64,000 nt of DNA from an uncultured Pelagibacteraceae bacterium (GTDB lineage Bacteria > Pseudomonadota > Alphaproteobacteria > Pelagibacterales > Pelagibacteraceae), in the NCBI GenBank assembly GCA_902604245.1, contig CACKXQ010000004.1:23896-87895 (forward strand), given 5' to 3'. The notes under the pieces are model-generated. The model was not told the DNA's origin. It was given only the letters and a program-made list of their open reading frames with translations, and did not search any database. Position numbers and translations under genes: made by a program. Of the stretch, positions 11,420 to 15,955 are shown one piece after another (position 1 is the stretch's first letter; the number at the start of each line of letters is the position of its first letter).

Positions 11420-12421
11420 TTATATCCAGTGAGGATAGGGAAGGCCTTTTTCTTGTAAAAAAGATTTATTAAACATCTTTGAGTTGTATTTATCAGATTT
11501 ATCACAGAGAATTGTCACAATTGTTTTACCTGGACCTAAAAGTTTACCCAATCTTATTGCTCCAGCAATGTTTACTCCACAACTTGTACCTAAACTTAAA
11601 CCTTCCTTTTCAATTAAATCAAATAAAACAGGCAAAGACTCATGATCACTTATTGAAAATGCTCCATCAATTTTTGCTTTTGCAAAATTTGCAGTAACTC
11701 TACTAGATCCAATACCTTCAGTTATTGAACCACCTTCACTCTTTAATTCACCATTTTCAATATAACTATAAAGAGAGGAACCTGTTGGATCCGATAAATA
11801 TATTTTAATATCTTTATTCTTTTCTTTTAAAAAACTACTTACTCCTGCAATTGTGCCACCAGTACCTGATGAACATACAAAACCATCAATTTTGCCGTCA
11901 GTTTGTTCCCATATTTCTGGCCCTGTTGTTTCATAATGACCTTTAGAATTTGCAGTATTATCAAATTGATTAGCCCAAACTACACCGTGATTGTTACTAC
12001 TCTTCAACTCATCAGCCAATCTTCCTGCATATTTAACAAAGTTATTTTCATCTTTATAAGGTTTGGGTGGAACCAACCTTAAATCAGCTCCAATATTTCT
12101 TAATAAATCTTTTTTTTCTTGTGTTTGATTATCGTTCATCACGATAATTGTTTTATAACCAATAGAATTTCCTAAAAGACATAACCCAATCCCAGTATTA
12201 CCTGCGGTTCCCTCAACAATTGTTCCACCTTTTGAAATTAGTTTTTTTTCTTCAGCATCTCTTATTAAAGCTAGAGCCGCTCTATCTTTTACAGAGCCAC
12301 CTGGATTAAGGTATTCTGCTTTTCCATAAATATTACAACCTGTAATTTCTGATGCAGCTTTTAATTTAAATAATGGAGTGTTTCCTATTGCTTCGATAAA
12401 ATTATTTTGTAAAGTTTTCAT
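11420..12421 (-). CDS. cysK: Cysteine synthase A-like PLP enzyme
   Basis: [42 protein letters not shown]. Confidence 0.88.
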
Positions 12422-12999
12422 ACATCAAGCTTTGTATCACCCCCCGGTGCAACACCATAGGGTTTAAATTCTTCAGATGCAGTTCCAACATTTTTTGCAG
12501 GAATACCAACCATTACTGCATTTTCTGGAACATTTTTTGTAACAACAGCGTTGGCTCCAATTTTTGCATTTTTACCAACCACAACTGGTCCAAGTATTTG
12601 TGCACCAGAACCTACTACAACATTTTCTTTTAATGTTGGATGTCTCTTAACATTTCTTTGATTGTCTGAATTTATACTTGGAGCAATTCCGCCTAATGTT
12701 GCCATGTGATAGATAGTAACGTTATCTCCAATATCAGATGTTTCTCCAATTACTACTCCCATACCATGATCTATAAAAAGATTTTTTCCAATTTTAGCAT
12801 TTGGATGGATTTCAATACCTGTTAAAAATCTTGAGAACTGAGAAATTATTCTTGCAACAAGATGAAATTTTGCAATTGAAAAAAAATTTGCAATTCTATG
12901 AAAAAATACAGCTTTAACACCAGGATAAGTTAGTATTAAACTTAACTTTGATCTTGCAGCAGGATCTCTTTTAATTATCGACTCTAAAAAATCATTCAT
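12418..12999 (-). CDS. cysE: Serine O-acetyltransferase
   Basis: Hexapeptide repeats; [29 protein letters not shown]. Confidence 0.93.
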
Positions 13000-13029
13000 G
13001 TTTGTTTAAGATTAGTTATTAAAATTTAA

Positions 13030-13140
13030 CTATTTATTGCAACAGCAGTTTTCTGATGATGGTTTGCAATCACAATTTTTACAAACGCATCTGTCACAAG
13101 AACAGTTTTTACATTTACAGTGTGAATTATTGCAAGCCAT
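13030..13140 (-). CDS. 36-aa metallothionein-like Cys-rich peptide MACNNSHCKCKNCSCDRCVCKNCDCKPSSENCCCNK
   Basis: Translated by hand; 12 Cys of 36 residues in a CxCxxC repeat; ATG to TAG; absent from the ORF track because of length. Confidence 0.75.
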   Translation of the reverse strand: MACNNSHCKCKNCSCDRCVCKNCDCKPSSENCCCNK

Positions 13141-13194
13141 AAGAGTTATATAATTGTATATTTTTTAAAAACAATACCAATAATAACCCTGATT

Positions 13195-13887
13195 TTAGAG
13201 TTCTTTAAGCGTTAATCCCTTTAGATTTGCTGGTACTGCGATATCCATCATTTTTGGATTGGCAAGATTAAGATTATCCATTATTTCAGCATATTCCTCT
13301 TTTGAGCTAACTTGTAATCGAGGATTATTACTTTTCTCACTACCAATTGTTGAATACTTTTTGCCATTATAATCATGAGCAGGATAAACAAGTGTTTCTT
13401 CTGGAAGTCTTAAAAGTTTACCAAATAATGAGTCATACGCTTCGTGGGCGCTACCATTTTGAAAGTCAGTTCTACCTGTTCCATTTATTAAAAGAGTATC
13501 TCCTGTAAAAACTCTATCATTCATTAAGTAACTATATGAACAATCTGTATGACCTGGAGTATAAATAGTTTTAAGTTCAATATTCTCGACATTTATATTT
13601 TCTTCATCTTTTAATTTGATATCAATAACCTCAGACTTTGAGTTTTCACCCATTATACGAATACAATTTGTTCTTTGATTAAGTTCATTTAAGCCAGTTA
13701 CATGATCTGCATGAATATGAGTATCAATTACTTTTACAAGTTTTAATTCCAAACTTTCTAAAACTTTTATGTATTCATCAGTATGTTCAATTACAGGATC
13801 AATTATTAATGCTTCTCGTCCTTTTCCACTAGAAATAATATAAGTGTAAGTAGAGGATTTAGTATCAAATAGTTGTTCAAAAATCAT
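13195..13887 (-). CDS. MBL-fold hydrolase, ETHE1-like persulfide dioxygenase
   Basis: THIHADHVTG, TPGHTDCSYSYL, FTGDTLLINGTGRTDFQ, YPAHDYNG. Confidence 0.85.
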   Translation of the reverse strand: MIFEQLFDTKSSTYTYIISSGKGREALIIDPVIEHTDEYIKVLESLELKLVKVIDTHIHADHVTGLNELNQRTNCIRIMGENSKSEVIDIKLKDEENINVENIELKTIYTPGHTDCSYSYLMNDRVFTGDTLLINGTGRTDFQNGSAHEAYDSLFGKLLRLPEETLVYPAHDYNGKKYSTIGSEKSNNPRLQVSSKEEYAEIMDNLNLANPKMMDIAVPANLKGLTLKEL

Positions 13888-13922: not shown

Positions 13923-15203
13923 CTAATTTTCAATAGCTTTATGATTAGGCTTGCTCCATTCTTTTCCTTTAAACATTACATTCCATTGCAACCAAGGAAA
14001 AAGCTTTGATTTCATTTGCCAGTATAAAGAACTAGGTTTTGTTGGATCAAATGGCAAACTTGGAGTTACTTTTCCACCATAACAAAATTCTGCTAACATA
14101 ACTTTACCGTATGCAACTGTAAGAGGGCAGGCTCCATATCCATCATAAAGTCTATATGCTTCAGATGATTTATTGATATCTTTAATTATATTGTGAGCCA
14201 CTATTGGAGCTTGTTTTCTAACTGCTGCACCTGTTTTTGCATTAGGTGCATTCATTACATCTCCTAAACTATAAATATTTTCATATTTAGTATGTCTCAA
14301 CGTCCCTTCTTTATGATCTACATCAACCCATCCACCAGCATCAGCTAATGGACTATTCTTAATAAAGTCAGGAGAAGTTTGTGGTGGCGTTACATGAATA
14401 AAATCAAATTTCTTCGTAACCTCTTTAGAATTTCCATCTTTATCCGATTGTTTGAATACAGCTTCTTTGGCCTCACCATTAACTGAAATTAAATTATGCT
14501 GGAAACTTCTTTTAATACCATATGAATCACATATTTCATTTAGTGGACCTTGAAAGTGAGGCACACCAAAAATAACTGGTTTTGCACATAGAAATTCTAA
14601 ATTACTATCTTTAAGAGCTCCTTTTTTCTTTAAGTGATCAGCAGCTAAGTAAGCTATTTTTTGAGGTGCTCCTGCACACTTAATTGGCATTGGAGGTTCA
14701 GTAAATAATAAATTTCCTCCCTGCAAATTCTTTAAACATTCCCATGTATAAACAGCCATATCTGAACTATAATTGGTACAAACATTATTTTTTCCTAAAG
14801 TTTCTTTTAACCCTGCCACTCCATCAAAGTTAATTTTTAAACCAGGACAAACTACTAAGTAATCATAAGAATATTCACCGCCTGAAGTCTTCACCGAATT
14901 AGACTCTGGAGAAAAACTTTCAGCATATTCTTTAATCCAATTAACATAATTAGGCATTACAGATGACATTGGCTTTATGGTGCTGTTTACATCATAAGCA
15001 CCTGCGCCTACTAAAGTCCATGCAGCTTGATATAAAGATTTTTCTGAAGGTTCTATTATTGATATTGATAAGTCAGACTTTAAACTTTTAAGCCTTGTAG
15101 CAACTGATATACCAGCGCATCCGCCACCGATAATCAAAATGTTTGAGTGATTAGTGTTATTCATATCAAAAAATCTAACACTTATAATCTGCTTAAGATA
15201 CAC
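13923..15203 (-). CDS. Sulfide:quinone oxidoreductase-like FAD/NAD(P) oxidoreductase
   Basis: ILIIGGGCAGISVATRL; CPGLKINFDGV; YSLGDVMNAPNAKTGAAVRKQAP; likely start at MNNTNHSN. Confidence 0.82.
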   Translation of the reverse strand: MYLKQIISVRFFDMNNTNHSNILIIGGGCAGISVATRLKSLKSDLSISIIEPSEKSLYQAAWTLVGAGAYDVNSTIKPMSSVMPNYVNWIKEYAESFSPESNSVKTSGGEYSYDYLVVCPGLKINFDGVAGLKETLGKNNVCTNYSSDMAVYTWECLKNLQGGNLLFTEPPMPIKCAGAPQKIAYLAADHLKKKGALKDSNLEFLCAKPVIFGVPHFQGPLNEICDSYGIKRSFQHNLISVNGEAKEAVFKQSDKDGNSKEVTKKFDFIHVTPPQTSPDFIKNSPLADAGGWVDVDHKEGTLRHTKYENIYSLGDVMNAPNAKTGAAVRKQAPIVAHNIIKDINKSSEAYRLYDGYGACPLTVAYGKVMLAEFCYGGKVTPSLPFDPTKPSSLYWQMKSKLFPWLQWNVMFKGKEWSKPNHKAIEN

Positions 15204-15295: not shown

Positions 15296-15955
15296 ATGTT
15301 AAAAATAAACAGTATGTGTCCTGATTTTCAATGTAAAACTACAGAGGGAGATATCTCTTTTCATGAGTGGCTTGGAGATAGTTGGGGCGTATTATTTTCT
15401 CACCCAAAGGATTTTACACCAGTTTGTACTACAGAATTAGGTTCATTAGGACAAATGAAAGCTGAGTTTGATGCAAGAAATGTAAAAGTAATCGGACTAA
15501 GTGTAGATGGAGTTGAGGATCACAAAAAATGGTTAGAAGATATCAAAGATGTATCTGGAACGATGCCTGATTATCCTATTATCGCTGATGAAGATTTAAA
15601 AGTTGCAAAACTTTTCAATATGTTAGAAGCCGATGCAGGAACAACTTCAATGGGAAGAACAGCAGTTGATAATGAGACTGTTAGAACTATTTTTGTTGTA
15701 AGACCAGATAAAAGAATTGGACTTTATTTAACTTACCCAATGGCTACAGGTAGAAATTTCCATGAAATTTTAAGAGCCATAGACTCAATGCAACTTACTG
15801 CAAAACATAGAGTTGCTACTCCAGCTAATTGGAAAAAAGGTGAAGATGTAGTAATTCTTCCTGCTGTAAAAGACGACGAGGCTAAAAAAATATATCCAGA
15901 TGGATGGGAAACAGTTAAGCCTTATTTAAGAAAAGTTCCAGATCCAACAAAGTAA
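15296..15955 (+). CDS. 1-Cys peroxiredoxin (Prx6 class)
   Basis: HPKDFTPVCTTELG; RTIFVVRPDKRIGLYLTYPMATGRNF. Confidence 0.92.
   Translation: MLKINSMCPDFQCKTTEGDISFHEWLGDSWGVLFSHPKDFTPVCTTELGSLGQMKAEFDARNVKVIGLSVDGVEDHKKWLEDIKDVSGTMPDYPIIADEDLKVAKLFNMLEADAGTTSMGRTAVDNETVRTIFVVRPDKRIGLYLTYPMATGRNFHEILRAIDSMQLTAKHRVATPANWKKGEDVVILPAVKDDEAKKIYPDGWETVKPYLRKVPDPTK

Follow-up and report, generated by a model that had tools for sequence, protein, structure and literature searches.

The locus analysed here raises the question of what a peptide of 36 amino acids, one third of them cysteine, does directly ahead of cysE in SAR11, a group that ranks with the ocean's most abundant cells and for which few known regulators, few detoxification systems and no assimilatory sulfate reduction have been reported (PMC4161860, PMC5069961). 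With its 11-12 Cys the peptide is costly, it is under purifying selection and it has no Pfam or NCBIfam model. The reading favoured here, with a probability of about 0.55 on the basis of sequence comparison, is that it is a functional, metallothionein-like, thiol-rich product. The relevant features of the window (the whole stretch of DNA analysed, 64,000 nucleotides from an uncultured Pelagibacteraceae bacterium) are:

11420..12421, minus strand: cysK, cysteine synthase A, overlapping the end of cysE (NF007989, 517 bits, cut-off 387)
12418..12999, minus strand: cysE, serine O-acetyltransferase (TIGR01172, 213 bits, cut-off 210.65; synteny)
13000..13029, minus strand: spacer of 30 nt from the peptide stop to the cysE start, with no Shine-Dalgarno motif, conserved within clades
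13030..13140, minus strand, stop codon included: Cys-rich peptide ORF, 36 aa, 12 Cys (translation, genus homologues, dN/dS)
13147..13152, minus strand: predicted -10 box TATATA, separated from the peptide ATG by 6 nt (TATA conserved upstream)
13169..13174, minus strand: predicted -35 box TTGTTT, with 16 nt between it and the -10 box (sequence; a TTG-containing block is conserved among the class consensus sequences)
13195..13887, minus strand: ETHE1-like persulfide dioxygenase, 54 nt upstream of the peptide (PDB matches)
13923..15167, minus strand: sulfide:quinone reductase (SQR)-like flavoprotein (NF049943, type III SQR, 208 bits, below cut-off; synteny)
15296..15955, plus strand: 1-Cys-type peroxiredoxin (PF00578 and PF10417), the usual outer neighbour

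Translation of the minus strand at 13030-13140 yields MACNNSHCKCKNCSCDRCVCKNCDCKPSSENCCCNK followed by the stop codon, which bears out the preliminary description of an ORF with 12 Cys in a CxCxxCxC repeat (present twice) and a late CCC, placed between cysE and an ETHE1-like gene. This ORF was the only match within its own genome. Its Cys fraction of 0.33 lies above the maximum of 0.20 found in any ORF of at least 25 aa in 30 base-shuffled windows and, as the stronger argument, 143 fetched loci encoding 71 distinct peptides retain both the frame and the Cys pattern, so that chance is excluded and the ORF is a real, conserved gene. The preliminary description had named loss of the frame or of the Cys pattern in related genomes as grounds for rejecting it; homologous intergenic regions keep both, or have no ORF whatever.

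A search of 101 relatives with the single sequence gave matches in 14 genomes, some of them weak. A profile built from 12 members found the peptide in 61 of 300 genomes of the same genus and in a sister genus: in an order-level sample, 37 of 298 genomes were positive with the same profile, 35 of them in the genus and one (G515) in another genus of the family. A match in G074 in this sample (E=0.09) is probably due to chance. The resulting prevalence of ~20% is a lower bound, as many genomes are incomplete and a divergent member of 44 aa and 13 Cys (in G025), which the profile did not pick up, was seen on reading the gap. Family members range from 36 to 44 aa and from 10 to 13 Cys, about one third of residues being Cys; the longest (locus L057, 1059-1193; 44 aa, 13 Cys) carries an additional insertion, itself containing Cys, in the loop that joins its two halves. 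A pattern scan of 85,488 GTDB species gave 100 confirmed loci, of which 80 were kept, every one from Pelagibacteraceae by record title; most come from single-cell genomes, and 'Candidatus Pelagibacter ubique' SCGC AAA795-M22 is also among them. Nothing convincing was found in a class-wide sample of 290 genomes, where there were two weak matches (E 0.02-0.08), one of them in an unrelated region and judged to be chance on reading the sequence, and the viral contigs searched contained no relative of the peptide. In at least 29 genomes the ETHE1-like gene adjoins cysE with a gap of only ~26-50 bp and the peptide is absent, as determined from coordinates and from reading six of the loci. A tree of 126 CysE proteins requires three changes of the peptide-presence label, and the moderately supported (93/86) nesting of one peptide-less group, with a gap of 27, among peptide-bearing relatives suggests that this group underwent clean loss of the peptide.

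The gene order ETHE1-like, peptide, cysE, cysK is found across the 143 loci wherever the contig suffices, while the sister-genus loci differ. The identity of the ETHE1-like gene is indicated by its PDB matches, 4ysb at 237 bits and 4chl (human ETHE1) at 178 bits, compared with ~62 bits for glyoxalase II. cysE lies directly downstream in every copy for which the contig reaches that far, its start 25-39 nt beyond the peptide stop at every locus measured; the distance from the ETHE1 stop to the peptide is mostly 47-55 nt, with extremes of 37 and 79, and the SQR-like gene adjoins in only part of the relatives' loci. In the sister-genus genome G515 (locus L062, 5288-6910), the peptide heads an apparent unit with cysE and an msrB-like gene. 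Neither ETHE1 nor cysK lies alongside, and a divergent glyoxalase-like gene is found upstream, the msrB and glyoxalase-like names having been given by inspection rather than by family search. A further locus, L108, has no ETHE1 match within the fetched stretch. Since the sister-genus loci keep the peptide and cysE without ETHE1, cysE is the constant partner, and ETHE1 is usual but dispensable. The cysteine/persulfide cluster proposed in the preliminary description therefore stands as a description of the neighbourhood, except that the invariant neighbour is cysE and not ETHE1. The peroxiredoxin gene (15296-15955, plus strand) usually flanks the ETHE1-peptide-cysE-cysK block on its outer side across relatives, which suggests a thiol-redox gene cluster. 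No metal-regulator or metal-transport gene was found among the immediate neighbours scanned.

The pattern of substitution indicates selection on the peptide itself. The dN/dS check that had been suggested for this ORF returned purifying selection, with a Nei-Gojobori omega for the whole ORF of 0.18-0.24 within length classes (~0.18 in the 36-aa class); divided by codon type, omega was 0.01-0.08 for Cys and 0.30-0.43 for non-Cys codons. Codon bootstrapping of non-Cys pN/pS gave intervals of 0.10-1.00 in the 36-aa class and 0.42-0.78 in the 39-aa class, excluding 1 in three of the four classes and reaching 1.0 in the 36-aa class of the window, so that with intervals this wide the non-Cys constraint is firm only when classes are combined. 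Among 69 aligned peptides, numbered in a 39-column register, Cys 3, 8, 10, 18, 26, 28 and 35 are present in all, Cys 20, 36 and 37 in 68 and Cys 13 in 67; nearly all variants hold 11-12 Cys while positions 15 and 34 swap, and the CCC near the C-terminal end is almost invariant. Conservation extends to Asn5 (69/69), Pro30 (66/69), Asp/Glu16 (65/69) and Lys29 (61/69), and His occurs at position 7 only, in 21 of the 69.

The composition of the remaining positions is also distinctive. The residues FILMVWY make up 9% of non-Cys positions, where shuffling of the same bases gives 23% and the window proteome has 39%, and the corresponding figures for aromatics are 0.9%, 5% and 10%; this avoidance of hydrophobic and aromatic residues far exceeds the effect of base composition and is like that of metallothioneins. 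The third positions of Cys codons have diverged by 0.097, 0.095 and 0.345 in the 36-, 38- and 39-aa classes, where cysE 2-fold sites have diverged by 0.099, 0.128 and 0.230. Cys synonymous sites thus diverge like cysE 2-fold sites, or faster in the 39-aa class, placing the constraint on amino acids and not on RNA. TGC accounts for 39% of Cys codons in the peptides and 22% in window genes, an excess that may reflect selection for efficient decoding, in sequences that are not independent of one another. An AlphaFold model has a pLDDT of 57 and no secondary structure; the lack of a predicted metal-free fold is expected of a metal-templated peptide and equally of any disordered one.

The upstream region points to the mode of expression. 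TATA begins at -8 to -12 from the ATG in all 72 distinct upstream sequences, compared with 13 of 56 window genes under a looser criterion with a wider interval, and a Shine-Dalgarno-like motif is found in none of the 72. This arrangement indicates that the cysE(-cysK) transcript probably begins with the peptide ORF and has no leader before it, transcription in the window being predicted to start at the ATG or within 2 nt of it; the peptide would then be co-transcribed with cysE. A TATATA-like box ~10-50 nt before the cysE ATG, with no obvious Shine-Dalgarno motif, is common where the peptide is absent (L059, L060, L061, L163, L174 and others), and on the simplest reading the peptide would lie as the first ORF between cysE and its promoter. 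Leaderless or very short-leader mRNAs may be in wider use in SAR11. Compared with cysE 4-fold sites, the spacer between the peptide and cysE has diverged 3-4 times less in the 36- and 38-aa classes (0.038 against 0.164 in the 36-aa class), suggesting either a cis element or plain constraint on cysE translation initiation. In 39-aa-class loci (e.g. L045 and L025) the spacer CTGATCATTTAAATAATCA includes an imperfect palindrome, kept within that class and absent from the 36-aa class.

If the peptide is a metallothionein-like product, it would be a small, soluble, thiol-rich protein made from the leaderless ORF that opens the cysE(-cysK) transcript. With 11-12 Cys thiolates set close together, it would fold around a soft metal ion species, be it Cu(I), Zn(II) or Cd(II), or bind reactive sulfur, and metal or thiol status would be buffered in step with cysteine synthesis. 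By analogy with metallothioneins, the short length and 11-12 Cys would suit a single metal-thiolate cluster of ~4 divalent ions, or more of Cu(I). Such a product explains the fixed Cys spacing, the conserved non-Cys residues and the avoidance of hydrophobics, none of which is explained by a pure leader peptide. The obligate linkage to cysE is unexplained by this product alone, unless co-expression with cysteine supply matters, and the position of every checkable copy directly upstream of cysE, which a free metal buffer does not need, counts against such a buffer. The want of a match to any metallothionein model and of metal genes among the scanned neighbours also counts against the metallothionein-like product, and the conservation of the spacer within clades suggests some cis role, or cysE translation signals, beyond a product alone.

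A leaderless Cys-rich ORF 25-39 nt before cysE also fits a cysteine-responsive leader, an alternative missing from the preliminary description. The ORF would then be a cis-acting attenuator and the peptide a by-product, as in mycobacterial polycysteine uORFs: when Cys-tRNA is scarce, ribosomes would slow at the Cys codons, above all at CCC, and alter the translation or transcription of cysE-cysK. This is a possible but unlikely reading. It accounts well for the probable leaderless start, the short distance to cysE at all measured loci, the nearly invariant CCC, the persistence of cysE linkage where ETHE1 is absent and a spacer that has changed less within clades than synonymous sites have, and it has a precedent in the Cys-rich uORFs of mycobacteria (PMC4633059, PMC9031893). 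Against it, constraint spans the full length of the peptide, including its non-Cys residues and inter-Cys spacing, and hydrophobics are avoided. There is also no excess RNA structure in the multi-member classes: folding of the region from the peptide through the spacer to the cysE start gave class-mean z values of +0.3, -0.6, +1.6 and -0.6, the RNAalifold covariation term gives no support, and simulated stalling gained no accessibility of the cysE start in the 36-, 37- and 38-aa classes and a small amount in the 39-aa class. The only Rfam match was a chance, sub-threshold one on the other strand, inside cysE. No Cys-rich uORF takes the place of the peptide before cysE in 26 checked sequences from peptide-less genomes, and cysK and cysE were not raised in sulfur-limited HTCC1062 (PMC5069961), a strain that may lack the peptide. 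It is the constraint on residues over the whole length, together with the lack of conserved RNA structure, that favours a functional product over a leader.

A dual role, in which the Cys codons would sense cysteine in cis for cysE-cysK and the product would serve as a metallothionein-like thiol buffer, is rather doubtful. If true, a single translation event would set both metal/sulfur buffering and cysteine synthesis in streamlined SAR11 cells.

It is improbable that the peptide is a buffer or carrier of sulfane sulfur (persulfide or polysulfide) that partners ETHE1 and the SQR-like enzyme and does not bind metal. The adjoining ETHE1-like persulfide dioxygenase, joined in part of the loci by the SQR-like gene, is what such a carrier would suggest, but the SQR-like gene does not adjoin in the other loci, the sister-genus loci hold the peptide and cysE without ETHE1, and the at least 29 peptide-less genomes keep ETHE1 next to cysE. 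CxC arrays with few hydrophobics are, moreover, typical of metal clusters and not of known sulfur carriers. A secreted or modified Cys-rich peptide (a RiPP, toxin or disulfide-rich peptide), suggested by small size and Cys content, is rejected as highly implausible, since there is no signal or leader segment (the start is M-x-C-x-N), the conserved neighbours include neither a modification nor an export gene, and the many CxC pairs are not a disulfide-knot pattern and the operon position with cysE is conserved.

The metallothionein-like product, which remains the preferred reading, has no match in Pfam, NCBIfam, PHROGs or PDB. The literature searched gave no description of the family, though large smORF catalogues may include the sequence uncommented, and the few papers listed that name metallothionein together with SAR11 or Pelagibacter appear to mention both in passing. 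It is apparently an undescribed small-protein family of SAR11, real and conserved, and would add either a new class of metallothionein or a Cys-sensing leader outside mycobacteria, both directly testable.

The closest comparisons include the prokaryotic metallothionein family PF02069 (SmtA, BmtA, NmtA), whose members are likewise small and Cys-rich with CxC and CxxC motifs. Membership of this family is rejected, as there is no HMM match and no conserved His: the window peptide and 15 relatives gave no match to PF02069 at E<=10, where an SmtA control sequence, whose identity this match bears out, scored 1.5e-20. The resemblance to metallothioneins noted in the preliminary description, including a length shorter than SmtA, accordingly holds for composition and for a coding gene and does not extend to this family. 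PF02069 proteins are ~50-56 aa long and have a folded, zinc-finger-like part with conserved His ligands and an adjacent ArsR/SmtB-type repressor, whereas the SAR11 peptide has 36-44 aa, about one third Cys, no conserved His and no secondary structure in AlphaFold, and adjoins no such repressor, its operon including cysE instead.

The comparison with mycobacteria is one of layout, across different phyla. Cys-rich leaderless uORFs lie upstream of cysA2 in mycobacteria, where attenuation was proposed (PMC4633059), and PMC9031893 describes attenuation by polycysteine uORFs as reported by Canestrari et al. 2020. The SAR11 ORF shares with them a probable leaderless start (the transcription start being predicted), a first-ORF position, contiguous late Cys codons and a cysteine-metabolism gene directly downstream. 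Unlike them, it has Cys over its whole length at fixed spacing and conserved non-Cys residues; selection mainly on Cys codons, which a pure leader would lead one to expect although it does not formally define the family, is not what is seen, given the non-Cys omega and the conservation of N5, D/E16, K29 and P30.

The peptide has the general composition by which metallothioneins are broadly recognised, being below 10 kDa and very high in Cys, with CxC and CC motifs and few aromatics. Short eukaryotic Cu-thioneins and the alpha domain of vertebrate metallothionein are of similar size, with about one third Cys and no or few aromatics. No sequence relation between these and the SAR11 peptide was detected, and the shared composition is probably convergent.
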